Assembly (NCBI RefSeq): GCF_000730165.1
Contig: NZ_CP022112.1
Span: forward strand, 434,001 to 498,000
Direction of reading: 5' to 3'
Length of the DNA stretch: 64,000 bases
DNA from: Nitrospirillum viridazoti CBAmc
GTDB taxonomy: Bacteria > Pseudomonadota > Alphaproteobacteria > Azospirillales > Azospirillaceae
The notes under the pieces were generated by a model that searched no databases, had not been told where the DNA came from, and saw only the letters and a program-made list of their open reading frames with translations. Numbering within the stretch: position 1 is the stretch's first letter; each line of letters begins with the position of its first letter. Below are positions 35,639-56,700 of this stretch, one piece after another. The position numbers were made by a program, and so were the translations under genes.

Positions 35639-37317
35639 CCATGAAGGTTTCGGCCCTTAACATTTCAAGATTCTTCGCCCCGCTCGCCATGGCCATGGCG
35701 GCTTTCGCGCTCGCCACGCCGTCACCGGCGGCCGAGACGGCGCCAGCGGCCGATGCCGCCCGCTGTGAGGCGCTTACCCAACTGCACCTCAAGGACACCA
35801 CCGTCGACAGCGCGGCGATGGTCGAAAAGGGTGCGGGGGCCACTCCGGGTCTCCGCGACGCATCGACCCTGCCGGCCTTCTGCCGAGTTGTCGCCCATGT
35901 ACGATCGGCCCCCGACTCCGATATCGGGGTCGAGGCCTGGCTGCCGGTCGGCACCTGGGGCGGCGTCTTTCACGGCAACGGCAACGGGGGGTTCGCCGGC
36001 GTGCTTCAGGGCGGGTACGGCAGCATGGTCGCCGGGTTGCGGCGCGGGTACGCCGTGGCGACGACCGATACGGGAACGGCACCCGCGACGCCGTTGGACG
36101 GCGATGCGCTTATCGGTCATCCCCGCAAGTGGAAGGACTGGGGGCGTCTGTCAACCCACGTCATGACGGTGACCGGCAAGGCCGTCGCCCAGGCCTATTA
36201 CGGCCGGGGTGCCACGCGCTCCTACTACACCGGCTGTTCGACCGGGGGGCAGCAGGGGCTGATCGAGGCGCTCTATTATCCGGCGGATTATGACGGCATT
36301 CTGGTCGGCGCGCCCGTCATCAATCGGACCTGGGGCCACGCCGCCGTCCTGTGGGACTTCATCGCCGCCAATCGCACACCCGGCAGCCACCTGTCGGATG
36401 CCAAGCTTCGATTGCTGAACGACGCCGCGGTCGCAAGCTGCAACCGTCGCGGCTACGGCCTGCAGGGGGACGCCTTCATCACCGATCCCCTCAGCTGTCC
36501 CTTCGATCCTGCGGAACTGGGCTGCCAGGGGGCGGAGTCCGACCAATGCCTGACGCCGGCTGAGGTCGCGACCGCCCGCGCGTTCTACGATGGCCCGACC
36601 ACCGCGGACGGGCGGGCGGTCTTTTTCGGCTGGCCGCCGGGCAGCGAGGTTCAGGGCCGGTTCGGCTGGGCGTTCCTGCAGAGCGCCGCCAACGGCCAGC
36701 CGCAATTCGGCAGCTTGTTCAAATGGGTGTTCGGTGCCGACTGGGATTGGCGGGGCTTCGACCTTGATCGCGACATGCCCACGGTCGACCGCGCCCTGGG
36801 CGGCGACGTCAACGACGCCACCCAGGGAAGTCTGCGTGCATTCAAGGCGCGCGGCGGCAAGCTGATCATCTATCATGGCCTGGCTGACACGCTGGTGCCG
36901 CCGGGCCAATCGGTCGCGTTCTACGACCGCCAGGTGCGGGAACTGGGGGGCATGGACCAAGCCCGGGATGTTGCCAGACTCTTTCTGGCGCCCGGGCTGA
37001 TGCACTGCGGTGGCGGCCCCGGCCCCGACGCGTTCAACTCGGCGCTTGGCGGCACGCCGCAACCGCCCGTCGGTGGTCCGGGGGATGACCTCTTCGCCTC
37101 ATTGGTCGACTGGGCCAACGGCGGGCGCGCGCCCGACCGCGTGATCGCCACGAAGTTCGCGATGGGGGACCCGAAGACGATCCAGCTTCAACGGCCGCTG
37201 TGCGCGTATCCGCAAAAGGCGTCATATGATGGTCGCGGTTCGACCAATGCCGCGGAAAGTTTCGTTTGCTCATCCACGCCGAACCGCACGGAAGGTGACA
37301 AGGGCACCCAACGTTGA
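35635..37317 (+). CDS. Tannase / feruloyl esterase family protein
   Basis: This 560-residue secreted esterase has a signal peptide ending near SPAAETA. The family's CS-D-HC arrangement is present: Cys201-Ser202 in YTGCSTGGQQG, Asp418 in HGLADTLVPP, and His457-Cys458 in LMHCGGG. The disulfide between the two motif cysteines positions the catalytic Ser and His. Additional cysteines (such as those near residues 288, 297 and 305) fit the lid domain. Family members hydrolyse gallate, ferulate or other aromatic and aliphatic esters. It ends the receptor, ligase and transporter cluster and is translationally coupled to the transporter. Confidence 0.92.
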   Translation: MTMKVSALNISRFFAPLAMAMAAFALATPSPAAETAPAADAARCEALTQLHLKDTTVDSAAMVEKGAGATPGLRDASTLPAFCRVVAHVRSAPDSDIGVEAWLPVGTWGGVFHGNGNGGFAGVLQGGYGSMVAGLRRGYAVATTDTGTAPATPLDGDALIGHPRKWKDWGRLSTHVMTVTGKAVAQAYYGRGATRSYYTGCSTGGQQGLIEALYYPADYDGILVGAPVINRTWGHAAVLWDFIAANRTPGSHLSDAKLRLLNDAAVASCNRRGYGLQGDAFITDPLSCPFDPAELGCQGAESDQCLTPAEVATARAFYDGPTTADGRAVFFGWPPGSEVQGRFGWAFLQSAANGQPQFGSLFKWVFGADWDWRGFDLDRDMPTVDRALGGDVNDATQGSLRAFKARGGKLIIYHGLADTLVPPGQSVAFYDRQVRELGGMDQARDVARLFLAPGLMHCGGGPGPDAFNSALGGTPQPPVGGPGDDLFASLVDWANGGRAPDRVIATKFAMGDPKTIQLQRPLCAYPQKASYDGRGSTNAAESFVCSSTPNRTEGDKGTQR

Positions 37318-37388
37318 CGCAACGGCATCTTATATTCAGGGCTTGCGCTTCAGCCATGGCCCGCGTGTTCCTCCCGTATTCGTTCATT

Positions 37389-37421
37389 CTGAACGGCCGG
37401 GCCCAATGCCGGCCCGGTCAG
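37389..37421 (+). terminator. GC-rich hairpin downstream of the tannase gene
   Basis: About 70 bases after the tannase stop there is an imperfect inverted repeat. CTGA..GGCCGGGC pairs with GCCGGCCC..TCAG around a short loop, with about 11 of 14 pairs. No T-run follows. It is a plausible transcript end, but a weak call. Confidence 0.35.
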
Positions 37422-37470
37422 CACCCAAACTATCAATAAGTCGTTCTGCCCCCGGAGGTGTCGAACGTCG

Positions 37471-37623
37471 ATGCGTGTGGCCAAGGCCGTCCGTCAATCA
37501 AGGAACCAGGCCAGGGCTGATGTCTTCGACTACATCGAATGCTTCTTCAACCCAACACGCTGCCATTCGATGCTGGGGTGTCTCAGCCCCGTCTACTTCG
37601 AACGAAACAGCGAGGTGGCTTGA
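37471..37623 (+). pseudogene. IS3-family transposase (OrfB) C-terminal remnant
   Basis: A 50-codon stretch reads RADVFDYIECFFNPTRCHS, then LGCLSPVYFER, ending at a TGA. This is the C-terminal tail of the IS3-family OrfB integrase (the usual form is DVFDYIE.FYN..R.HS.LGYLSP..FE). Everything upstream of this tail is missing. The fragment shows that the gap before the RiPP precursor was once a mobile-element insertion site. The flanks (37318-37470 and 37624-37911) show no other gene that I can support. Confidence 0.75.
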
Positions 37624-37911
37624 TCGACCTTATCCCGGTGTCATCCAATCCGGCAGCAGACCAGTATTCGGATTGATGGTTATGGGAGAGGGGCATGGGA
37701 AAGGGCGGTTACCGCTGTGGCGCGTTTGTTCTACAGACAGGTTCTCGACCCGTAATTACTCTCACACGAGATCGGCAAACAGCACACGCGATAAGCCGAC
37801 CATCAACCACCGTATGCCTGACAGCAGGTTCCAGATTTCTTTCGGCATGTTTGCAATCACTTTGACCAATCTCATGTGAGCTGGACGTGACGAACGAAAG
37901 GAAGGTGAAGG

Positions 37912-37968
37912 CTCGGCCGTCAGGACGGCGGCGGGATCAGCCAGCAACCGCGCCCTGAACCCTTCATG
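37912..37968 (-). pseudogene. Inverted fragment of an NHLP-type leader peptide
   Basis: Read on the minus strand, 19 codons give HEGFRARLLADPAAVLTAE. The intact leader at 38053 has DEGFKARLLADPSAVLAAE on the plus strand. About 45 of 57 bases agree by eye. Similarity stops at both ends, so only the central helix region of a second precursor gene is left, in the opposite direction and about 140 bp away. A 37-codon tail in the same frame (37762-37875) is hydrophobic but unrecognised. Confidence 0.6.
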
Positions 37969-38052
37969 CCCAATGAAACCTGGATTATCCCGGGGGTGCG
38001 GAACGGGGGGGTATTGCTGTTCGAGTGTTTGAACCAAAAGGGGAATGCGCAA

Positions 38053-38322
38053 ATGCTGAATGAAGAAAATGCCAAGGTCGCCGGCCGGATCATTGCCAAG
38101 GCCTGGGCGGATGAGGGTTTCAAGGCGCGGCTGCTGGCCGATCCGTCGGCCGTGCTGGCGGCGGAAGGGGTCGACGTACCGGCGGGGATCCGCCTGTCGG
38201 TCGTGGAGAACACCGAGGCGAGCTACACCCTGGTGCTTCCCGCCCGTCCGACCGATTTGTCGGACGAGGAGTTGGATGGCGCTTCCGGCGGCTGGTGCTG
38301 GTACTGCGAACTCAGTCTCTGA
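38053..38322 (+). CDS. RiPP precursor peptide, nitrile-hydratase-like leader (NHLP) family
   Basis: This 89-residue protein has the layout of an NHLP-type precursor: an alpha-helical leader related to the nitrile hydratase alpha subunit, then a short core after a double glycine. Diagnostic pieces are GFKARLLADPSAVLAAEG (residues about 22-39), IRLSVVENTEASYTLVLP, and DLSDEELDGASGG ending at residues 79-80. The predicted core is residues 81-89, WCWYCELSL, with two cysteines three apart and three aromatics. A ribosome binding site AAGGGGAA lies eight bases ahead of the start. No radical SAM, YcaO, LanM-type enzyme or peptidase-type ABC exporter is visible within the window, so the gene is an orphan here. 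Confidence 0.78.
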   Translation: MLNEENAKVAGRIIAKAWADEGFKARLLADPSAVLAAEGVDVPAGIRLSVVENTEASYTLVLPARPTDLSDEELDGASGGWCWYCELSL

Positions 38323-38735
38323 CGCGGCATCCGCCGTCACCTGCCCCTTGCGCCCTGTGTCAAGGAAAGTGGACACGATTAAGTGAGGGGACCGGGCCGT
38401 CATCGCCCGGAGGGCCTTCAACACAGCTCGCATCCTGGCCTGGGGCGCGTTCGGCACGCTGCCGTCCCGCACGACGGGCTGTGATGTGCTGATCCATAAG
38501 GGCTGCATTTTCAATGCAGCCCTTACGATGCCTGGTCTGAATGTGTATGCGGAAGGTGTTATTGGTTAAAGTCAAGATCCCGTCTATAGTACTAACCTGT
38601 ATTACATAAGAATAATGCGTCGTGTGTGCGGGGGCTCAAGAAGAGCCTATCGGAATGTTTGAGTTTAACCAGCCTATTAGCGGATCTGGACCGGCAGTGT
38701 AAGGCGGCGATTTTCTGTGGGGCGATCAAAAAAGT
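38323..38735. other. Intergenic region upstream of the giant autotransporter gene
   Basis: This 413-bp gap holds no supported gene. It contains the perfect hairpin at 38497-38525. It also has a more A/T-rich stretch at about 38555-38625 (CTATAGTACTAACCTG and nearby) that probably carries the autotransporter promoter. A short GTGTC..GACAC motif at about 38361-38380 resembles the ends of some IS3-group elements, but this could not be confirmed. Confidence 0.4.
38497..38525. terminator. Perfect 13-bp hairpin with three-base loop
   Basis: TAAGGGCTGCATT (38497-38509) is followed by TTC and the exact complement AATGCAGCCCTTA (38513-38525). It lies 175 bases after the RiPP precursor and 211 bases before the autotransporter start. 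Its perfection and small loop suggest a structured RNA end, but no T-run follows on either strand. It could end the precursor transcript or shape the autotransporter leader. Confidence 0.5.
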
Positions 38736-41700
38736 ATGGGGGCAGGGATGGGGCTGCGAGGAGCTGGCGGGACTGACACCTGTCCGCAAGAGATACGACA
38801 TGACCACCGGCTGCGGCTCGCTCGTGCCCGAAGGGTTTTTCTGGCTGGTTCCTCGCTGGCGGTGGTGGCCGTCGGCATGGCGGCGCCCCGGCCCGTCCAC
38901 GCCCAGAGCGCCTACACCACCTACAGCGGCAATTTTTTATCCAGCGGCGTGACCTTGACCGGCAATACGGTGATCGGCGCTGGCACCATCGGCGCCCTGT
39001 TCAAAAACGCCCGGGTCAATCCGCTGCTGATCACCGCCGGCGGCACCATCAAAACCGGCCTGGGCGGCATCGCGCTGATCAGCGGATCGTCGATCACCAG
39101 CATCGTCAACAGTGGCGTGATCGGCGGCACCAACTTCGCCGTGTCCATTTCCAGCGACAGCACCCTGGGCGCGTTGCGCAACAGCGGCACCATCCTGGGC
39201 GACGTCATCAACAACGGCAGCACGGATCTGACCCTGGGTGGCGGCACCGCCGCGGGCACCTATACCGGCATGAGCGGCCAGGGCACCATCACCAACACGC
39301 TCAGCAACCTGATCTTCACTGGCGGTTTCCTGCTGAACGACGCCGTCAACATCAGCGGCCATACGCTGATCAACAGCGGCGCTGCCGTCACCCTGACCAG
39401 CATCGTCACCGTCACCGGCGACTACACCCAGGCGTCCGGCACCCTGGCACTGGGCCCCTCGGGCGAACTGGTGATCACCGGCAATGCCAGCCTGGCCGGT
39501 GGCCAGGTGACCGCCACCCTGTCCACCCTGTCGGCCGGCGCCACATACCTGGTGGGGGATGCCCTGGCCACCCTGGTGGCCGCCGGCAGCGGTACCTATA
39601 CCGGCCTGACCGGCAGCATCACCAGCAGTTTGGCTCGCCTGGCCGCCACCCTCGGCACGGCCGGCGGCAACTTGGTGGCGCAGGCTCTGAACGACTACAT
39701 CGGCGCCGGCACGCCCAGCCTGACGCTGACCGGTACGGTGGATACCAACGGCACCACGCCCGTCGCCGCCTATGTGGCGCCCGGCGTCAGCATCGGTACC
39801 CTGGTCAATACCGGGCACCTGACCGGCGACACCATCGGGTTGAGCATCGGCACCGGCGCCACCATCGGCACCCTGATCAACGCCGGTCTGATCGACCTGC
39901 ATGTGTCCCTCAACGGTATGCCGCAGACCGGCATTGCCGTCGCGCGGAACGCCGTCGTGGGCACCCTGTCGAACAGCGGCACGATCCAGCAGATCCGCTA
40001 CGGCATCACGGCCTTCAACGCCACCGTCGGGCTGCTGTCGAACAGCGGCACGATCACGGGCACGACCAACGGCATCGGCATCTACACCACGGTCAGCACC
40101 ATCCAGACGCTGGTCAACAGCGGCACCATCGACATGCGCGCCGGATCCGCCGGTGTCCTGAGCAGCGCGACCCTCGGCACGCTGGTCAACAGCGGCGCCA
40201 TTCTTCTTGGCGCCAACAGCACCTACAACTACGGCATCATTCAACGAACGGCGACGCTCGGGACGCTGGTCAACAGCGGCCTGATTTCGGCGCCCGATGC
40301 CCTGATGGTGCAAACCATTGGCTCCGGCAGCAGCGGCGCGTTCCTGACCATCGTGAATTCCGGCACCATCGCCGGCAACATCAGTACCAGCACCCTGGCC
40401 GCCAGTGTGCCCAACGTGACCGTCCTGGGCGGCAGCGCCGGCACGGTCGGCACCCTGACCGGCTTCTCCGGCACGCTCAATCCCGGCGGCACCGGTGTCG
40501 TGGGTGTGTTCACCAACGCCAACAGTGATTTGTATTTCGCCGGCGGCAACCTGTTGCTGAACGACCGCATCAACGCCACAGGGCATACGGTGCTGAACAC
40601 CGGCGCCGCCCTCACGCTGGTCAACCCCATCAACGTCACCGGCGCCTACGCCCAGACGGGCGGCAGCCTGGTCCTGACCAACAGCGGCGCGCTGACAGTC
40701 AGCGGCAGCGCCAGCCTGACCAACGCGACCGTCAGCATCGCCCCCAACGCCGCCGGCAACTACGTCGTCGGCAGCCCCGTCACCGTGGTGGTCGGCGGCG
40801 GCGGATCCGATTTCACCGGCGTGTCCGTTTCCCTGGGTGCGCTGACCGGTGCCAGCCTGACCGGCAGCGTGGCCGGCAACGGCCTGCTGGTGGTGGCCAG
40901 TAATGATTATATCGGCAGCACGCTGGCAACGCTGACCAACAGCGGCAGCCTGTCGGGTGCCACCGTGGTCTACATCGCCGCCACCGGCAGCCTGGGCCAA
41001 CTGGTCAACACCGGCACGCTGACCGGGGACATCCGGAACCTGTCGGCCAATACCCTGTCCATCAGTGGCGGCACGGGCGGCGTGGTGGGCACGCTGACGG
41101 GCGGCACCCTCAGCAACAGCTTCAGCGACCTGGTGCTCAGCGGCGGCAGCCTTCTGCTGGACGATGCGGTCAACGTCAGCGGCCACACCCTGGCCAACAG
41201 CGGCGCATCCGTGACCCTGGCCAGCGTGGTCGGGGTCACCGGCAACTACGCGCAGACGGCCGGCACCCTGGTCCTGCAGCCGGGCGCCGGGCTGGCGGTC
41301 AGCGGCGGCGCCACCATGACGGGTGGCAGCGTCATCGCCACGCTGTCCACCCCATCGGCGGGCGCGACATACCTGGTGGGTGACGCACTGTCGACCCTGG
41401 TGTCCGCGGCCAGCGGCGCCTATACGGGGCTAAGCGGCACGGTGGCCAGCGGCCTCAGTCCGCTGACGGCCGCCCTGGGTACCGACAGCGCCAACCTGCT
41501 GGCGGTGGCCACCAGCGACTACGTCGGCGCCAACGCCGCCAGCCTGACGCTGACCGGCACCGTGGATACCGGCAGCATTGCCGCCTATGTCGCCAGCGGC
41601 GTGTCCCTTGGCACGCTGGTCAACGCCGGCCACCTCACCGCCGGCACGGTGGGGGTGGGGATTGACGTGGCGTCGGCCACTATCGGCACCCTGATTAACA

Positions 41701-44700
41701 ACGGGCTGATCGACGGGCGCGTGAGCGCCAGCACCACCCAGTTCGGCATCCGCGTCGGCACCGGCGCCACTGTTGGCACCGTGTCCAACACCGGCACCAT
41801 CCAGGCCCATGTCGGCATCCTCAGCCAGACCAGATTCGGCAGCGTCTTGTCCAACAGCGGCCGGATCGCCGTAGGTGCCAGTGGCTTCGGCATCGTCAAC
41901 AACGCCACCGTGGCCACGGTCAGCAACAGCGGCACCATCGCGGCCACCGCCGGCGGCGTCGGCATCTACAATGTCGGGACCATTGGCGCGGTGCTGAACA
42001 GCGGGCTGATCACCGTCAGCGGCGGTACCGGCAACCAATACGGCATCCTGCAATCGCAGTTCTCCATGGGCACGGTGATCAACAGCGGCACCATCCTGGC
42101 GCCCGAGGCCGTGGCGCTGGTCTTCGGCGGCAGCATCGGCACCCTGGTGAACGCGGGCTTGATTGCCGGCAACATCGTCAACGGCACCCTGAACGACAGC
42201 TATTCCTATGGCGGCCTGACCATCGCGGGCGGCAGCGGCGGCAGCATCGGCACCTTCACCGGCTATGTCGCTAACAGCCAGGGCACCATCAGCAACACCT
42301 TCAGCAATGTGGTCTTCACCAGCGGCGCCCTGCTGCTGAACGATGCCATCGATGCCGCCGGCCACACGGTCATCAACACCGGCGCCGGCATCACGCTGGC
42401 CAATACCGTCCGCATCACCGGCGACTATGCCCAGACGGGCGGCAGCCTGAGCCTGTCCAACGGCGCCCAACTGCTCGTCAGCGGGGCCGCCAGCCTGACC
42501 GGCGCCCAGGTCAGCGTGAGCAGTCTGCCCACCCAGGCCAACTACGTGGTGGGTGCCCCCACCACGGTGGTGGTGGGCGGTGCCGGTTCCGACTACACCG
42601 GCGCGTCCGTGACGGTGGCGCCTCAGACGGGCATCACCCTCACCGGTGGGAATGACGGCACCAATCTGCTGCTGATGGCGCAGAGCGATTATGTTGGTGA
42701 CACCCTGGCCACCCTGACCAACAGCGGGGCCGTGTCGGCCCCCACGGCCCTTTACATCGCCGCCACCGGCAGCCTGGGCCAGTTGGTCAATACCGGCACC
42801 CTGTCCGGCACCATCCTGAACCTGTCGGCGCACGACCTGTCCATCATCGGCGGGACGGCCGGCACGGTGGGCGTGCTGACCGGCGGCGCCATCATCAACA
42901 CCCTCGGCAACGTGATGCTGAGCGGCGGCCTGCGCCTGGCCGAGAATGTGAACGTCAGCGGCCACACCCTGGTCAACACCGGCGGCATCGTCGACGCGAC
43001 CGGCAACCTTGCCATCACCGGCGACTATACCCAGGTGGGTGGCGCCCTGATCGTCGCCAACAACACCGCCCTGGCCGTCAGCGGTAGCGCCAGCATCACC
43101 GGCGCCACGGTCAGCGGCACCGTGGCGGTCAACAATGGCGCCACCTATCTGCTGGGCGACACCCTGGGCACCCTGGTGAGCGCGGCCAGCGGCAGCTACA
43201 CCAGCCTGACCGGCTCCCTTGCCGCCTCGACCGATCGTGTGACGGCCAGCCTGGGATCGGACGGCGCCAACCTGCTGGCCGTGGCCGGCAACTATTACAT
43301 CCGCAGCAATCTTGCCAGTATCGGCAACACCGGCGTCGCCAGTGGCGTCACCGCCCTGTATCTCACCAACACACTTGGCACCTTCACCAACAGCGGCACG
43401 CTGGCCGGCAGCAGCTACGGCATCATCGGTCAGGCCAGCGGCAGCATCGGCCTGCTGGACAACAGCGGCCTGATCCAGGGCGGGGCGTTTGCCGTGGCGA
43501 TGGGCAGCATCGGCACGCTGGTCAATGGCGGCACCATTGCCGCCGGCACGGTCGCCATCCTGGGCAGCAACCAGTACACCCTCGCCACCATCGACAACCA
43601 GACCCTGGGCCTCATCAGCGGCCAGACCGCCCTGTCCCTGGCCGGCACCGTCGTGGCCATCGGCTCGATCAACAACAGCGGCACGATCCTGGGGCAGTCC
43701 TACGGGATCTGGAACAGCGGCACCATCAACCGGCTGTCGAACAGCGGCACCATCGCGGCGACCGTGACCAACGGGCTGGCCATGATGAACTTCGGCAGCA
43801 TCGGGACCTTCGATAACAGCGGCAGGGTCACCGCCGTCCGGTCGGACATGGTGAACAACGGCACCATCGACACGCTGACCAACAGCGGGCTGATCGGTGG
43901 CGGGACCAACGTCGCCCTGCGCAACTACTCCATCATCAGCACCCTGTCCAACAGTGGCACCCTGACGTCCACCAACGGGGTGGGCTTCTACAACAATGGC
44001 ACCGTCGGCCTGCTGGACAACAACGGCGGCACCATCAGCAGCGGCGGGTCCTTCGCCCTGGTCAGCCCCGGCACCATCGTCCGCCTGGCCAACAGCGGCA
44101 CCATCACCGCCCCTGGTTTCGGCATCGGCCTCTTCAACGGCGGCAAGATCGGCACCCTCGCCAACGCCGGACTGATCACGGGCGGCACGGCCCTGGAGAT
44201 CTTCGTGGGCAGCCAGGTGGACCTGCTGGTCAACAGCGGCACCATCGCCGGCAATATCGACAACAACTTCGACCCGAACAACGCCGGACCGGGCACGCTG
44301 GCGGCCGCCCTCACCATCGCCGGCGGCACCGGCGGCACCATTGGTACCCTGACTGGCGCCAACCTGACCAATCAAGGCCACATCACCACCCGGTATGCCG
44401 ACGTGGTCTTCTCTGGCGGCGATCTGCTGCTGAACGATAACATCACCACCAACGGCTTTACCGTGCGGAACACCGGTGCCGGCATCACCGTCGCCAACAC
44501 CGTCAACATCACCGGCGGCTATATCCAGACAGGGGGCAGCCTGGGCGTGGCGGTGGGGGCCGGCCTGCTGGCCGTCAGCGGCAGCGCCAGCCTGACCAAC
44601 GGACAGGTGCAGCTGGTTGGCGCCGCCACCAACAACTATTTCCAAGCCGACACCCTGGGCACCCTGGTGACCGGTGGCGCCGGTTCCGACTATGCCGGCG

Positions 44701-47700
44701 TGACGCTCAGCGGCGATGGCGCCGGCCTCAGCCTGGCCGGGGTCACCATTGGTACCGACCTCATCGCCGTCGTGCGGAACGACTACATCGGCGGCACCTA
44801 CGCCAGTCTGGGCAACACCGGGACGCTCAGCGTCCAGAACGGCGCCGCGGTTTACGTGGCCCAGACCGGCACACTGGGCACCCTGGCCAACACCGGCGGC
44901 GTGATCAGCAGCGTCGGCAGCACCGCCATCGCCAACAGGGGCACCATCGGCACGCTGTCAAACAGCGGCACGATCACCGGCGCCGGGGTCGGCCTCCATA
45001 ACACCGGCCTCATCCATACGCTGACCAATGACGGCACCCTGGGCGGCCTGTTCGCGGACGGCGTCATCGACACGGTTGTCAACAGCGGCACCATCGGCGG
45101 CGCGTTCGATGTCAAGGGCACGCTGGGCCTGCTGTCCAACAGCGGCAGCATCGGCACCCGGATTTATGTGGAGCAGACGGGCGGTGTCGGCACCCTCATC
45201 AACAGCATCGGCGGCGCGATCAGCGGTGCCGCCAGCGGTATCGGGAATGCCGGTTCCCTAGGCACTTTGGTCAACCGAGGCCTGATCAGCGGCGCCCAGT
45301 ACGGCGTCTTTTCCTCCAACGCCACGGGCACGGTGGTCAACAGCGGCACCATCCAGGCCACCGGTGCCAGCGGTACCGCCCTATATGGTTCCTTCGGCAC
45401 CATCCTGAACAGCGGCCTGATCAGTGGCGCCAACGCCCTGTCCCTCACCAGCCAGCCGGACCTGCTGAACAACAGCGGCACCATCCTGGGCGATATCCAG
45501 GCCACGTCCGGTACCCTGACCCTCACCGGCGGCACCGGCACGGTGGCGGGCACCTTCAGCGGCGCCACGGTGACCAACCGGGGCACCATCACCGTCACCA
45601 GCGGCAATGTGGTGCTGGCGGGTGGCAACGTCCTGCTGAACGACAACGTCGTCGTCAGCGGGCACACCCTGATCAACAACGGCGCCAACCTTCAACTGGC
45701 CGGCGCCGTCAGCGTCACCGGCGGCTACAGCCAAACGGTCGGCACCCTGGGCGTCACGGTAAACAACGGCCTGACGGCCAGCGGCGTCGCCAACATCACC
45801 GGCGGCACGGTCCTGGCCTCCCTGGCCGCCACCGGCAACTATCTGGCGGGCACGCTGGGCACCCTGGTGGCCGGCGCCAACGGGTCCAGCTACGGCGCCA
45901 CCGTGGTCTCCGCCCTCACGGGCCTGGCGGGCAGCGGCGCCCTCAGCGGCGGCACCCTGCTGTTCGTGGGCGGCAACGACTACATCGGCGGTGCCTACGC
46001 CACGCTGAGCAACAGCGGCAGCCTGTCGGCCGCGACGGCGGTCTACATCGCGGCCACCGGCAGCCTGGGCAATCTTTCCAACACCGGCACGCTGGTGGGC
46101 AACGTCCGCAACCTGTCGGCCGTCGACCTTTCCATCGTTGGCGGGACCACGGGCACGGTTGGCACCTTTACCGGCGGCACCCTCATCAACACCCTGTCCA
46201 ACGTGGTGCTCGCATCCGGCAATGTGCGCCTGGCCGATGCCGTCGACGTGACCGGCCACACCCTGGTGAACAGCGCCGCCGCCGTGACCCTGGGCGGCAC
46301 CGTGGCCGTCACCGGCGATTACAGCCAGACGGGAGGTGGCCTGCGGTTGGGTATCGGCAGCGACCTGCTGTCCGTTACCGGGGCGGCCCGGTTCGCGGGC
46401 GGCGTGGCCACCGTCACCGGTTTCTCAAGCACCGCCAACTATATGGCTGGCAGCATCTTCGGTACCCTGGTGCAGGGTGGGGCGGGGTCCGACTACACCG
46501 GTATCAGCATCACCAACACGGTGGCCGGCTTCGGGCTGGGCGGCACGGTGGCGAACAACGCCCTGCAGGCCGTGGCGCTGAACGACTATGTCGGCGGCAC
46601 GCTGTCCGCCCTGACCGTCACCAATGCCGTCAGCACCGCCAGCACGGCGTTGTACGTGGCGGCCACGGGGTCGGTATCGGGCACGCTGACCAACAGCACC
46701 TCGCTGGTGGGTCAGAACGCCGGCGTGCGCAATTTCGGCACCATCGGCGCGCTGCTGAACGACGGGACGATCGCCGGCGGTGCCTATGGCCTGCGCAACA
46801 GCGGGGGCGCCATCACCTTCCTCGGCAACCACGGCACCCTGGCGGGCCAGACGGCCGGCCTGGCGGTGGACGGCGGTAGCGTCATGTTCGCCCTGAACGA
46901 CGGCAGCATCGCCACCGTCGCCGTCAGCGGCGGCGGTTCGATGTTCGCGCTGGGCAATATCGGGCGGATCAGCGGCGGTGTTCAGGTGCAGGACGGCGGC
47001 ACGCTGGGCTCCATCCTCAACTTCAACGGCGGCCTGATCAGCGGCGCCACCGCCCTCAGCATCGGCGCCCAAGGCCAGTTCTTCGCGCTGGCCAACGGCG
47101 GCACCATCGCCGGCAACATCATCAATAACGCCACGGCCACGCCCAACCTGACCATCATGGGCGGCACGCTGGGCAATACCACCATCGGGACCGGCACCTT
47201 TACCGGCGCCGCCCTGACCAACCAGGGCATCATCACCAACACGCTGGGCGACGTGCTCTTCGCATCCGGCGACGTGCTGCTGAACGACAGCGTCAATGTT
47301 GGCGGCAACACGGTACGGAACATCGGCGCGGACCTGACCCTGACCGGCACCGTCAGCGTCACCGGCAATTATGCCCAGACGGGCGGCACCCTGGTCCTGG
47401 TGACAGGCGCCGGCCAGCTGGCAGCCAGCGGCAGCGCCAGCCTGACCAACGGGCAGGTGCAGCTGATCGGTGCCGCCGCCGGCAATTACCTGCAGGGCGG
47501 CACGGTGGGGACCCTTGTGGCCGGCGGTGCCGGCTCCGACTACGCCGGCGTGGTGGTGACTGATGACGCCACCGGCCTGACCCTCAGCGGCGCCATCGCC
47601 GGCACCGCCCTGGTGGGCGTGGCGCGGAACGACTATATCGGCAGCACCTATACCAGCCTGGGAAATACCGGGACGCTCAGCGTCCAGAACGGCGCCGCCG

Positions 47701-50700
47701 TTTACGTGGCCCAGACCGGCACCCTGGGCACCCTGGCCAACACCGGCGGCGTGATCAGCAGTGTCGGCAGCACCGCCGTCGCCAACCTGGGCACCATCGG
47801 CACGCTGTCGAACAGCGGCACCATCACCGGCGGCGGGGTCGGCCTCCATAACACCGGCCTCATCGATACGCTGACCAACGCCGGCACCCTGGGCGGCCTG
47901 TTCGCGGATGGCGTCATCGACACGGCCGTCAACAGCGGCACCATCGGCGGCACGTTCGATGTCAGGGGCACGCTGGGCCTGCTGGCTAACAGCGGCAGCA
48001 TCGCCACCCAGATTCATATCGAACAGACGGGCGGTGTCGCCACCGTCATCAACACCACCGGCGGCGTGATCAGCGGTGCCGCCAGCGGCATCGAGAATGC
48101 CGGTTCCCTCGGCACTCTGGTCAACAGTGGCACCATCCTCGGCACCACCAATGCCGGCATCGGCGGCGCCGGCGCCATCGGCCTGCTGTCCATCACCAGT
48201 CTGGGCCTGATCGGTGGCGGCGTGGTGGGTGTGGAGGCCGGCGCCTTGGGAACCCTCATCAACCAGGGCACCATCGCCGGCGGCAGCATCGGCATTTCCG
48301 CGGGCACCATCGGCCTGCTGGCCAATGCCGGCACCATCGCCGGCGACGTGGCCACCTCGGGCGACCTGACCGTCACCGGCGGCAGCGGCACGGTGATGGG
48401 CATCTTCACCGGCGCCACCCTGGGCAGCCAGGGTGCCCTCAGCATTGCCGGCGGCAACCTGGTGCTGGCCGGTGGCAATGTCCTGCTGAACGACAGCGTG
48501 CGGGCGGCGACCGTGGCCAATACCGGCGCCTATCTGGCGTTGGCTGCCGGCATCAGCGTCACAGGCGCCTACGGCCAGACGGCCGGCACCCTCGGTGTCA
48601 CCGTGGACCACGGCCTGACGGTCAGCGGCGTCGCCGGCATCACTGGCGGCACCGTCCTGGCCACCCTGGATGCCGGCGGCAACTATCTGGCAGGCACCTT
48701 GGGCACCCTGGTGGCCGGCGCCGCCGGGTCCGACTACAGCGGCGCTGTGGTGGCCTCCGCCCTGACCGGCCTGACGGGCGGTGGCGTGGCCAGCGGCGAC
48801 AGCCTGCTGTTCGTGGGCGGCAACGACTATATCGGCGGCGCCTACGCCACGCTCAGCAGCAGCGGCAGCCTGTCGGCCGCTACGGCCATCTATATCGCGG
48901 CCGGCGGCAGCTTGGGGCAACTGGCCAACACCGGCACGCTGGCCGGCAACATCCGCAACCTCTCGTCCGTTGACCTGTCCATCACCGGTGGGACCGGGGG
49001 CACGGTGGGCACCTTCACCGGCGGCACCATCGTCAACAGCCTGTCCAACGTGGTCTTCGCGTCCGGCGATGTGCGCTTGGCCGATGCCATCGACGCCGCC
49101 GGCCACACGGTGGTGAACAGCGGTGCCGACCTGACGCTCGGCGGCACGGTCGCCGTCACCGGCGACTACGACCAGACGGGCGGCAGCCTGCGGTTGGGCA
49201 TCGGCAGCGACATGCTGTCCGTCACCGGGGCGGCGCGGTTCATGGGCGGCGGCGCCACCGTGACCAGCGCGTCGGGCACCGCCAACTATATGGCCGGCAG
49301 CATCCTGGGGCCGCTTGTGCAGGGCGGGGTGGGGTCCGACTATACGGGCCTCAGCATCACCAACCTGGTGACCGGCTTCGGTCTGGGCGGTACGGTGGTG
49401 AGCAACGCCCTGCAGGCTGTGGCGCTGAACGACTATATTGGCGGCACGCTCGCCACGCTGTCCATCACCGGCGCGGTCAACAACGCCAGCACGGCGCTGT
49501 ATGTGGCCACCACAGGGTCGCTGGGCACCCTGACCAACAGCACCACGCTGGTCGGCCAGAACGCCGGCCTGCGCAATGTCGGCACCGTCGGTGCGCTGGT
49601 GAATGACGGCTCCATTGGCGGCGGCAGCTATGGCCTGCGCAACAGCGGCGGCCTGATCACTTTCCTCGACAATGTCGGCACCCTGACCGGGCAGACGGCC
49701 GGCCTGGCCATCGACGGCGGCGTTGTCGCCTCCGCCCTGAACGTCGGCGGCATCGCCACCGTTTCCATCGGCGGCACCGGCACGCTGCTTTCCCTCGACA
49801 ACCAGGGCCAACTCAGTGGCGGCATCCTGGTGACCGGGGGCGGGCGCCTTGACACCCTGGGCAACAGCGGCACCATCGCCGGCGACATCCGGGTGGCCGC
49901 CGGCACCCTGACCATCGTCGGCGGCAGCGGCGCTGCCCAGGGCACCTTCACCGGCGGCACCCTGGGCAGCCAGGGCACCATCGCCGTCAGCGGCGATGTG
50001 GTCCTTGCCGGCGGCAACATCTGGCTGAACGACGGCATCCAGGCCACCGGCCATACCGTGGCCAATGCCGGCGCCAACCTGCAGCTGGCGGGTGCCGTCA
50101 GCGTCACCGGCGCCTACAGTCAGACGGCCGGCACCCTGGGGGCCACCGTGAACAATGGGCTGACGGCCAGCGGTGCCGCCAGCATCACCGGCGGCACCGT
50201 GCTGGCCACCCTGGACGCCACCGGCAACTACCTGGCGGGTACGCTGGGCACCCTGGTGGCCGGCGGTAACGGGTCAAACTACAGCGGCGCCACTGTCAGC
50301 TCAGTCCTCACCGGCCTGACCGGCACCGGTGCCGTCAGCGGCGACACCCTGCTGCTGGTGGCGGAGAACGACTATATCGGCGGCGCCTACGCCACATTGA
50401 CCAACAGCGGCAGCCTGTCGGCCGCCACGGCCGTCTATATCGCGGCGGGGGGCAGCTTGGGCCAGCTGGCCAATGCCGGCACGCTGGCCGGCAACATCCG
50501 CAACCTGTCGGCCGTGGATCTCTTCATCACCGGCGGGGGCGGCGGCACGGTGGGCACCTTCACCGGCGGCACCATTGTCAACAGCCTATCCAACGTGGTG
50601 TTCGCGTCCGGCGACCTGTTGCTGGCCGACGCCATCGATGCCACCGGCCACACGGTGGTGAACCAATCCGCCACCCTGCGGCTGGCCAGCCAGGTCAGCA

Positions 50701-53700
50701 TCACCGGCGCCTACGCCCAGACCGGCGGCACCCTCAGCATCGATCCCGGCACCGGCCGCCTGGTCGCCAGCCAGGCCATCGTCGTCAGCGGCGGCGTGGT
50801 GCAGGCCACGCTTAACGCCGGCGGTACCTATCTCTACGGCAACGGCTACACCTTGATGCAGGCTGGCGGTGGTATCGACCTCAGCGGCGCCAACCTCATC
50901 ACCGCCCTGGCCGGTTTCGCCGGCAACGCCACCATCGTGACGGTGACGGGCGCCAGCGCGCTGCTGCTGCAGTTCGCCAACGACTATATCGGCGGCACCA
51001 TCGGCAGCGCGTCGAACAGCGGCACCATCTCTGGCGTGCGCACTGCCGGATACGTTGCCGCGACCGGCAGCGTCGGCACCCTGTCCAACAGTGGCCTGTT
51101 ATCGGGCGGTGTGATTGGCGCCGCCAACAACGGGGTCGTCGGCACCCTGGTGAACGACGGCGCCATCACAGGGGCTAGCAGTGCGGCCGCCAACGTCGGC
51201 ACCCTTGGCACCCTGGCCAACAGCGGCACCATCACCGGCGGCCGCGATGGCGTCCACAACATCGGTACGGCCACGCTGGTCAGCAACACGGGCCTGATCA
51301 GCGCCATGTCCCGCGCCGGCCTGTACAACGGCGGCGGCATCGCCACCGTTTCCAACAGCGGCACCATCACCGGCACCGTCGGCCTCTACAACAGCGGCAC
51401 GCTGGCGGTCCTGATGAACGCCGCCGGCGGCACCTTGGCGGGTGTCACGGCGCTGTACAACGACGGTACCCTGGGCACCATCGCCAACAGCGGCATGATC
51501 CGCGGCGCCATCGTGAACGACGCGGCGCAGGACCTGGTGTTCACCGGCGCCGGCGGCGGCGGCCAGGGCACGCTGACGGGCCTGTCGGGCAGGGGCACGA
51601 TCACCAATACCCGGGGCAACGTGGTCTTCGCGGCCGGTGCCCTGCTGCTGGACGATGACCTCGCCGCCACCGGTCATGCCGTGGTGAACAGCGGCGCGAC
51701 CCTGGCGCTGGCCAATGCCGTGACGGTCAGCGGCGATTACAGCCAGGTCGGCGGCAACCTGGTGCTGACGCGGAACGACACCCAGGCGGCTGAACTGGTG
51801 GTCAGCGGCACCGCCACCGTCGGCGGTACCGTGCTGGCCAACCTGTCCTCCACCGCCAACTATCTTGTGGGGACCAGCACCTTGCTGCAGGCGGCGGGCG
51901 GTGCCACCGTGACGGCACAGCTGCAGGTCAGCGGCATCACCGGCCTGTCCGCCGCGCAGGGCGCCGTCAGCAATGGCCTGACTCTTACGGTCGGTAACGA
52001 CTATGTCGGCGGTTCGCTGGGCAGCGTCACCAACAGCGGCACCCTGTCGGCGGCCACCGCCATCTATGTGGCCGGCAGCGGCACCCTCGCCACCCTGGTC
52101 AACAGCGGCCTGCTGACCGGCACCGCCCATGCCCTGGTCAATTTGGGCAGCCTGGGCACCATCGCCAACAGCGGCACCCTCGCCGGCGATATCCTGAACG
52201 ATGGCACCGGCACGCTGGTGATCACGGGTGGCGCCGGCACCCTGGTCGGCACGTTGACGGGGCAGTTGTCGGGGCCGGGGGCCGGCATCGGCACGCTGAC
52301 CAGCACGGGCGGCGACGTGGTCTTCGCCGGCGGTACCCTGTTGCTGAACGACATGATCGCCGCGGCGGGCCATACGGTGTCCAACACCGGTGCCTCATTG
52401 CATCTGGCCAGCACCCTGACCATCACCGGCGACTATCGCCAGACAGCGGGCAGCCTGGCGCTGGACGCCGGTCAGTTGGTGGTCACCGGTGTCGCAGCGC
52501 TCAGCGGCGGCACGGTCGCGGCCTCGGTCTCGGCGGCCAGCAACCAGTTGGTGGGGGCGGTGCTGGGCACCATGGTCGTGGGTGGTGCCGGTTCCAGCTA
52601 TACCGGGCTGACGGCCCTCGTGAACGTGGCCAGTGTGGGCGTGACGCTCAGCACCGTCACCATCGGCGGCACTGTCGACCTGCTGGCCGTGATCGCCAAC
52701 AACTATGTCGGCGACACGCTGGGCAGCCTGGGCAACAGCGGGGTGATCGACGCCCCGACAGCCGTCCATGTTGCCGCCGGCGGCACCGTTGGCAGCCTGT
52801 CCAACACCGGCACCCTGATCGGCACCATCGCCGTGCTGAACCAGGGCCAGGTCGGCAGCTTCAGCAATGACGGCACCGTCATGGGCAGCGTCGCCGGCAT
52901 CAGCAACGCGGGATCCATCGGCACCCTGGGCAACCAAGGCACAGTGATGGGCAGCGTCACCGGCCTGGGCAACCAAGCGGGTGCCAGCATCGGCACGCTC
53001 AGCAACAGCGGCACCGTGGCCGGCCAGATGGCCCTTTACAACGCCGGCACCATCGACGTCTTCGTCAACACCGGATCGCTGATCGATGCCGGCGCGCCCA
53101 CGGCCGCCGGCCTGTACAACACGGGCAACATCGCCACGGTGCTGAACAGCGGCACCATCCTGGGTGCCACCTACGGTGTCTACAACGCCGGGACCATCGG
53201 CACGCTGGCCAACAGCGGCCTGATCACCGCACCTACCGCCCTCTATCTCGACACCAGCGCCAGCCTGGGCGTTCTGGCCAACAGCGGCACCGTCACCGGC
53301 AACATCCTGAACCTGTCGGCCAACAGCCTCAGCATCACCGGCGGCAGCGGGACGGTGGTGGGCACCCTGACCGGCTATGCCGCCGGCAGCCAGGGCAGTA
53401 TCATCAACACCTTCGGCAACGTGGTTCTCGCTTCGGGCAATCTGTTGCTGAACGACGCCGTGGACGTGGCTGGCCACACGCTGGTCAACAGCGGTGCCTC
53501 GGTAATTCTGGACAGCCTGGTCAGCGTCACTGGCGCCTACAGCCAGACGGCCGGCACCCTGACCCTGGACATCGCCAGCGGCGGGGCCCTGGCCGTCAGC
53601 GACGCCACCAGCCTGAGCGGCGGCACCGTGCTTGCGGATTTCGCGTCCACCGGCAACTACCTGGCCGGCAATGTCACGACGCTGGTCGCTGGCGGCATCG

Positions 53701-56700
53701 GCTCCAGCTACACCGGCGTGGCGGTGCAGGGCTCCCTGACCGGGCTGTTGGTGAGCCAGGGCGTGGTGGGCACCAATCTGCTGGCGGTAATTGGCAATGA
53801 CTATGTCGGCGGTACCCTGGGCAATCTTTCCAACACCGGCACCCTCACCGCCGCCACGGCTGTGTACATTGCGGCCAGCGGCAGCCTGGGCAATCTTTCC
53901 AACAGTGGCGCCCTGATCGGCGACCTGCTGAACACCAGCAGCCATGATCTGGTGATCGTGGGCGGCACCGGCACGGCGGTGGGCAGCTTCTCGGGTGGCA
54001 CCATCCGCAACAGCCTGTCCAACCTGACCTTCGCGTCGGGCGCGGTCAGCCTGGGCGATGCCATCGACGTCACCGGCCATACCGTCAGCAACAGCGGCGC
54101 CAACCTCACCCTGGCCAGCGACATCTCCGTCACCGGCGCCTACAGTCAATCGGCGGGCGCACTCGACGTGGCCGGCCATAGCCTGAACGTCAGCGATGCC
54201 GCCAACGTCAGCGGCGGCACGGTCTCCGCCGGTCTCAATGGCACCGGCAATTACCTGGTGGGTGACAGCGCCACCCTGATCCAGGGCGGTGCCGGTTCCA
54301 ACTATGCCGGCGCCGTGGTGACCAGCGGTGTCAGCGGCCTGTCGGCGACCGGCACGACCAGCGGCACCAGCCTGCAGGCCGTGGCCGCCAACGACTATAT
54401 CGGCGGCACTCTGGTCAGCCTGGCCGTCACCGGCAGCCTGACCAACACCGCCGGCGGCGCCACGGCGCTGTACATCGCCAGCACGGGCACGCTGGGCACC
54501 CTGGCCAACAGCGGGACGATATCCGGCAACATCGCCAACGCCGGCACCGCCAGCCTCAGCATCACCGGCGGCACCGGCACGGTGACCGGCACCCTGACGG
54601 GGACCGGCGGCATCGGCACCATCACCAGCACGCTGGCGAATGTGGAACTGGCCAGCGGCAACCTGGTGCTGAACGACCAGGTCAACGTTGGTGCCGGCAC
54701 GCTGGTGAACAGCGGCGCCACCGTGCTGCTGACCAACGCCATCAGCGTGACGGGCAACTACAGCCAGTCGGCGGGCACGCTGGCCATGGGCATCGGCAGC
54801 GGCACGGCGGGTGAGCTGCTGGTCAGCGGCAACGCCGCCTTCACCGGCGGCACCGTGGCGGTGACGGCGCTCTCGGGCAGCAACCTGATCGCGGGTCAGA
54901 GCTACACCATCGCCGAGGTGGGCGGGTCCTTGACCACCAGCGGCCTCAGTGCCGCGGCTACGGGCTTCAGCGCCACGCTGGGCACGGGCGCCAACGGGGC
55001 CGCCACCGACCTGCTGCTGACGCTGCTCAGCGACTATGTCAGTGGCACGCTGGGGACGCTGAGCAACACCGGCACGATCAACGCCGCCACGGCGGTGCTG
55101 ATCACCAGCGCCGGTTCCTTGGGCACGCTGGCCAACAGCGGTGTCCTCATCGGCAACGTGATCAACGCCAGCGCCAATGACCTGGTGATCGTCGGCGGGG
55201 CCAATGGCACGGTGGGCGGCTTCGCGGGCGGCACCATCCGCAACAGCCTGAGCAACCTGACCTTCGCTAGCGGGGCGGTCAGCCTGGGCGACGCCATCGA
55301 CGTGACCGGCCACACGGTCAGCAACAGCGGGGCCGGCCTGACGTTGGCCGGCGACGTGGCGGTGACGGGCAACTACAGCCAGACGGCGGGCACGTTGGCC
55401 GTGGCCGGCCATAGCTTGAGCGTCAGCGGTGCGGCGCAGGTGACGGGCGGCGTGGTCGATGCCGGGATGACCGGGACGGCCAACTACCTGGTGGGCGACA
55501 GCGTCACCCTGATCCGGGGCGGCAACGGCTCGACCTACACCGGGGCCACGGTGGTCAGCGGCCTGACGGGCCTGGACGCCACCGGCACCACCAGCGGCAG
55601 CAACCTGTTGGCCGTGGCGGGCAACGACTACATCGGTGCCAGCCTGGCCACGCTGAACGTCACGGGTACCCTGGCCAATACGGCCGGCGGCGCCACGGCG
55701 CTGTACATCGCCTCGACCGGTACCCTGGGCGCCCTGGCCAACAGCGGCACCATCAGCGGCAACGTCACCAACGTCTCGGCGCGGGATCTGACCATTACCG
55801 GCGGCAGCGGCACCGTGGTGGGCAGCTTCACCGGCGGGACCATCCGCAACACGGGCGCCAATGTGGTCTTCGCCTCGGGTAACGTCAGCCTGGGCGATGC
55901 GATCGATGTGGGCGGCACGCACACGGTCAGCAACATCGGGGCGGCCATTGCGCTGACCACGGACGTTGGCGTCAACGGCACCTATGCCCAGAGCGCGGGC
56001 AGCCTGAACGTGGGCGGCCATGTGCTGACGGTCAGCGATGCGGCGGTGGTCTCCGGCGGCGTGGTCAACGCCGGCGTCAACGCCACCGGCAACTACATCG
56101 TTGGCGACAGCGTCACCCTGATCCAGGGCGGCACGGGTTCCAGCTACAGCGGCGCCACCGTCATCAGCGGTATCACCGGCCTCGATGCAACCGGCACCAC
56201 CAGCGGGACCAACCTGCTGGCGATCGCGGGCAACGATTATGTCGGCGGGACTCTCAACACCCTGAACGTCACCGGCACGCTGGCCAACACGGCCGGCGGC
56301 GCTACGGCGCTGTACATCGCTCACACGGGCACCCTGGGCAGCCTGGCCAACAGCGGCACCATCACCGGCAATGTGGTGAACACCGGTGTCCGCGACCTGA
56401 CCATCATTGGCGCCACTGGGGGCGGCGGCAACGGCGCGGTGGGCCGCTTCACCGGCGGCACCATCACCAGCACCGGGGCCAACGTGGTGTTCGCGTCCGG
56501 TGCCGTCAGCCTGGCTGATGCGCTGAACGTCGCCACCCATACCGTCAGCAACGCCGGCGCTGGCATTGCGCTCGCCAGTGACGTGGCGGTCACGGGCAAC
56601 TTCGCCCAGAGCAGCGGCACGCTGACCACGGGCGGTCATGTCCTGACCGTCAGCAATGCTGCCACCGTGACGGGCGGCGTGGTCAATGCCGGTGTCAGTG

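Follow-up and report, generated by a model that had tools for sequence, protein, structure and literature searches.

A satellite NHLP-type RiPP precursor in Nitrospirillum, probably left by a decayed cluster copy and served in trans by a distant YcaO/NHLM cluster

Described RiPP systems and the present locus

In the prochlorosin/ProcM system, precursor genes are scattered. That system (PMC10783134) resembles the locus reported here in that one promiscuous enzyme is matched with many precursors, whereas its Nif11-type leaders and lanthionines differ from the NHLP leaders and probable azolines of the present case. The NHLP-TOMM systems of Haft et al. 2010 (PMC2887384) share with the present locus the leader family, the Gly-Gly, a short and variable core, a large number of precursors for each YcaO set and the NHLM transport trio, and their precursors can lie far from the modification and export genes. 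In contrast to those cases, the detachment seen here is traceable to a decayed copy of a cluster, and the core here is copied from one precursor of the main cluster. According to the work on MprC/MprE (PMC12455567), a single YcaO, MprC, modifies ten NHLP precursors, and its binding involves helix-1 positions 7, 10, 11, 14 and 17 together with an L(X)4L motif. The helix-1 features and the L(X)4L are both present in the leader of the precursor described below, which is called the satellite. On the other hand, MprD of that system (PMC12455567) is a flavin oxidase, whereas three Nitrospirillum genomes gave no SagB-type match, and a gene of unknown function, called 'mid' here, sits in the Nitrospirillum cluster. 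By analogy, maturation of the satellite in trans by a distant YcaO is plausible.

The DNA analysed is a window of 64 kb, G000:C3:434001-498000, where G000 is the genome carrying the window and belongs to the genus Nitrospirillum; a search of open-access papers found no literature on RiPPs in this genus. The genus sample comprised seven genomes, G000 included, among them Nitrospirillum amazonense BR 12005 (G001), N. amazonense BR 11880 (G003) and Azospirillum sp. B4 (G005). Wider comparisons drew on 385 genomes of the class and on 62 loci, and matches in a plasmid collection came from seven records, each at <60% identity.

The satellite precursor and the main cluster on its contig

The gene at 38053-38322 (+) has 89 codons and encodes an intact NHLP-family RiPP precursor of 89 aa, as the preliminary description had claimed; translation of the reading frame also bears out the leader end SDEELDGASGG and the core WCWYCELSL given there. 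The search with an NHLP model that it had proposed gave a match well above the threshold (TIGR03793, profile search, E 2.3e-24, 85 bits against a cut-off of 50.9, residues 7-80). NHLP leaders are relatives of the nitrile hydratase alpha family, and PF02979 of that family matches the satellite as well (E 6e-10). The leader of 80 aa (38053..38292, +) contains the L(X)4L motif as LSDEEL (Leu69, Leu74) and ends in Gly-Gly, which is followed by the nine-residue core (38293..38319, +), cyclisable at positions 2, 5 and 8. A ribosome-binding-like stretch, AAAAGGGGAA, was read from the sequence at 38036..38045 (+), and its purine run recurs 5' of the ortholog in G001. A C-terminus that does not vary had been named as a point against a core; it is conserved among orthologs and variable between paralogs, and several main-cluster cores are equally conserved between genomes.

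The precursor had been described as an orphan, which holds inside the 64-kb window and fails genome-wide. TIGR03793 has 12 matches in G000, namely the satellite and, on the same contig but 112-119 kb further right, 11 precursors at C3:584426-591020, adjoined by a YcaO pair, an NHLM HlyD and two NHLM ABC proteins; the satellite is therefore not an orphan. The suggested scan of the whole genome thus recovered NHLM ABC exporters, YcaO proteins, a LanM and 11 other NHLP precursors, and calling a precursor an 'orphan' on the basis of one window requires such a search first. The order in the cluster (L009, L011) is histidine kinase (-), response regulator (-), ten precursors (+), YcaO1, 'mid' (our name for the cluster's gene of unknown function), precursor 11, YcaO2, HlyD, ABC1 and ABC2. 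YcaO1 (C3:587594-589885) and YcaO2 both exceed the cut-offs of TIGR03882, for the leader-binding region, and of TIGR03604, for the YcaO region, so that a YcaO cyclodehydratase with a leader-binding domain is present in the satellite's genome. The NHLM export trio is present in G000 too, about 120 kb off rather than local: HlyD scores above the TIGR03794 cut-off, ABC1 (1056 bits) above that of TIGR03796 and ABC2 (835 bits) above that of TIGR03797. This set is common to G000, G001, G003 and G005, except that YcaO2 (L009:15131-17368) and precursor 11 (L009:14782-15099) occur only in G000 and G001. Since these two are present together or, as in the clusters of G003 and G005, missing together, they may be a dedicated enzyme-substrate pair. 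In the G005 cluster the kinase matches as two separate pieces, and the 5' part of the first precursor is missing.

When WCWYCELSL was compared with the last nine residues of 42 main-cluster cores, the first precursors of four genomes were the best matches (7, 6, 6 and 5 of nine positions), and all other cores agreed at two positions at most. Core shuffling gave p 5e-5 for 7/9 over the 42 cluster cores and p 0.0014 for 5/9 against the 11 cores of G000 alone. Seven related cores (three satellites and four first precursors) carry either Cys or Ser at positions 2, 5 and 8 (21/21 cells), and both residues occur at positions 2 and 8, an exchange at cyclisable positions such as cyclodehydration would tolerate. 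In a pattern scan of the 62 loci, no GG-W-[C/S]-x-x-C core was found outside Nitrospirillum, all five matches coming from the genus. The closest cluster leader in DNA is that at C3:586416 (79.6% nucleotide identity over 226 bases), and the satellite, with a core like that of the first precursor, is thus a mosaic. In our own mapping of helix 1, anchored on the helix Trp and with two short rows left out, the five positions read K/G/R/A/W in 3/3 satellites and 10/41 cluster leaders, the Trp being found in 44/44 leader rows and the Ala in 43/44; the L(X)4L pattern used for the leaders demanded hydrophobic ends.

Remains of a second cluster copy around the satellite

Window positions 37000-39000 were compared with the main cluster by blastn, and the 64-kb window was searched by tblastn with eight cluster proteins (YcaO1, YcaO2, 'mid', HlyD, the two ABC proteins, the kinase and the regulator). 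These eight queries revealed no intact gene for a maturase or an exporter in the window; with the YcaO, ABC, kinase or regulator proteins as queries, nothing fell below E 0.004 there, and the best of these matches (YcaO2) falls inside an autotransporter gene. The earlier statement that the window holds no maturase or exporter gene is hence right for intact genes, but it missed scraps of HlyD and 'mid' beside the precursor. The remnant of the NHLM HlyD gene lies at 38432..38514 (+; blastn 79.5% over 83 bases, E 6e-15; tblastn 38426-38539, E 1e-7), and a remnant of the 3' part of 'mid' at 38388..38447 (+; blastn 76.7% over 60 bases, E 9e-7; tblastn 38390-38446, 14/19 residues, E 0.001). To the left of the precursor, alignment with G001 and G003 reveals the opening codons (GTG ACG AAC GAA ...) of a tandem NHLP leader, now decayed, at 37887..37913 (+). 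Next to them is an inverted leader fragment at 37912..37972 (-), which blastn matches in opposite orientation to several leaders of the cluster (best 37887-37972, E 1.4e-10).

Further upstream, at 37716..37786 (+), stands an element shared with the main cluster (86% over 71 bases to L009:8253-8323), where its copy separates the response regulator from the first precursor. It was found in 10 places in four of the seven genus genomes, and nine copies were aligned. The element is a putative promoter or regulator site; its distance from the start codon, 266 bases at the satellite vs 82 in the main cluster, counts against the main reading given below. Its position and conservation suggest that the two-component pair of the cluster may regulate both through it.

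The same decay can be followed in related genomes. G000 and G001 have a dead tandem leader ahead of the surviving precursor. The G003 locus has suffered a deletion through which the start of this tandem leader now runs in frame into the surviving precursor, whose core is unchanged. Both the 'mid' and the HlyD scraps are present at the G001 locus; that of G003 has the upstream element and, of the two scraps, the HlyD one, and a sequence search there did not find the 'mid' scrap. Because scraps are common to G000, G001 and partly G003, much of the decay is older than the split of these genomes. In G005, the main cluster's ABC2 is directly followed by the upstream element and the autotransporter, with the precursor deleted past its first codons, an arrangement suggesting that the cluster once ended with the satellite unit. 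The left flanks of the units in G000, G001 and G003, over about 9-11 kb, have no common blastn match at E 1e-5, which points to a unit that has since moved or to rearranged surroundings. On the strength of these sequence comparisons, the window locus is taken to be the remains of a second copy of the genus NHLP/YcaO cluster in which one precursor is intact.

Other broken pieces of the cluster, consisting of the regulator end, the upstream element and the first leader, were observed at L043 (G003:C1, element 200239-200308) and at L041/L045 (G005:C636). They are read as repeated duplication and decay within the genus.

The autotransporter gene on the right (38736..58682, +) is a giant ORF of 6648 aa with a C-terminal autotransporter beta-domain (PF03797, 148 bits) and many internal repeats, and it adjoins the precursor in G001 and G003 too. 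Dependence of the satellite on it was considered and rejected because of an autotransporter ortholog in G006 that has no NHLP scraps upstream at E 1e-4; the gene is accordingly treated as a neighbour.

Retention, maturation and rival readings

Orthologs stand intact in the same place in G001 and G003 (TIGR03793 84 and 84.5 bits), with the cores WCWYCELCL and WCWYCELSL, respectively. Between G000 and G001, dN is 0.010 and dS 0.148 (dN/dS 0.07); between G000 and G003, the values for codons 10-89 are 0.023 and 0.202 (0.11), and those for all codons 0.052 and 0.264, the resulting ratio of 0.20 being due to the fused start of G003. G001 and G003 give 0.034 and 0.182 (0.19) over codons 10-89. Nonsynonymous codons number only 2, 4 and 6 in the three pairs. 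In a simple neutral simulation, in which the observed number of changes was placed at random and outcomes were scored for equally few nonsynonymous codons without a stop, p was 0.04% (G000-G001), 0.06% (G000-G003) and 0.46% (G001-G003), for pairs that are not independent and counts that are small. The alignments thus indicate that the satellite orthologs are under constraint, with dN/dS about 0.07-0.2 from small counts. The satellite occurs in 3/4 genus genomes with the cluster YcaO and in 0/3 without it, and YcaO1 is present in every genome keeping it. It is dispensable, since G005 has kept the cluster with the satellite deleted.

What is observed, therefore, is an intact precursor with decayed flanks and constrained orthologs, and a complete cluster at a distance. 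The precursor might still be a silent relic, a leftover yet to decay that is neither expressed nor matured, and the gene scraps that fill the locus, the dead tandem leader adjoining it, the loss of the satellite gene from G005 and the other broken copies at G003:C1 and G005:C636 all accord with such a state. We consider this unlikely, because three genomes keep the ORF open, with few nonsynonymous changes, between flanks that carry many indels, and because the deletion in G003 supplied an in-frame new start without altering the core. The preliminary description had offered, besides an unrecognised enzyme, maturation in trans or a relic, and both of these are partly right: the surroundings are a relic, whereas the precursor itself is kept and could be served by the distant cluster.

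An aromatic cross-link or a disulfide, made by an unrecognised enzyme, had also been proposed for the product. The core does contain two Trp, one Tyr and a C-x-x-C, and 'mid' carries a weak iron-redox signal; azolines are nevertheless likelier, since Cys and Ser alternate at core positions 2 and 8 of the seven related cores as for cyclodehydration and the recognisable maturases of the cluster are YcaO proteins, so that a cross-linked or disulfide product is improbable. Even less probable, to the point of being very remote, is a lanthipeptide formed through a second NHLM system with a LanM (G000:C2:446453-449227). This LanM is accompanied by its own NHLM HlyD, ABC1 and ABC2, but G003 keeps the satellite without any LanM, and the G001 core WCWYCELCL has no Ser/Thr to dehydrate; LanM does not go with the precursor throughout, nor does a core Ser/Thr, and LanM maturation was rejected as the main reading. 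The second export set and the LanM occupy genes 8697-17285 of L108 (G000:C2:432000-451900) and occur also in G001; a simple motif scan recognised no precursor near the LanM locus, yielding two meaningless matches.

The probable explanation is that the satellite is a precursor of a decayed cluster copy, azoline-modified and exported in trans by the distant YcaO/NHLM cluster. That it is expressed, modified, cleaved and exported, and what its product is, we infer along the following lines. The local maturation and export genes would have been lost, one precursor surviving as the satellite, which is probably still transcribed from the element copied off the main cluster. YcaO1 would probably recognise its leader in trans through the leader-binding domain and make azolines of Cys2, Cys5 and Cys/Ser8 in the core; the peptidase domain of the distant NHLM exporter would then cleave after Gly-Gly, and a nine-residue product would be exported. 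The calculated [M+H]+ of the core WCWYCELSL is 1202.50 when unmodified, and would be 1184.49, 1166.48 or 1148.47 with one, two or three azolines.

A SagB-type dehydrogenase is needed for azoles, not for azolines. TIGR03605 found no such enzyme in G000, G001 or G003, and one in G005. This suggests azolines, unless 'mid' is an oxidase, and makes full azoles uncertain. The candidate azoline oxidase 'mid' (L009:13899-14750 = G000:C3:589898-590746) has a weak signal of PF14518 (heme-oxygenase-like iron-containing redox) in 3/3 members, with a best E of 1.1e-4 and a score below the cut-off for the member shown, and it matches structure 3dde weakly (E 0.06). Its AlphaFold model, with a mean pLDDT of 39.8, is unusable. 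Relatives of 'mid' were found in 1/385 class genomes, which is G000 itself, and in 3/62 loci, in these searches only in Nitrospirillum.

The window locus is a genuine small modified-peptide gene that stands alone after a cluster copy decayed, and distant NHLP precursors have been known since 2010 (PMC2887384). Although scattered precursors are known, the detachment of RiPP precursors from their clusters is seldom visible, and here its stages stand side by side in one genus: the element with the precursor deleted (G005), the tandem pair with one member dead (G000, G001) and the fused start (G003). As a tentative and rather doubtful extension, duplicated RiPP clusters that decay to single, still-served precursors may be how NHLP-type precursors scatter, the locus being a snapshot of that process, and 'mid', as a heme-oxygenase-like iron enzyme rather than a flavin dehydrogenase, may finish the azolines.
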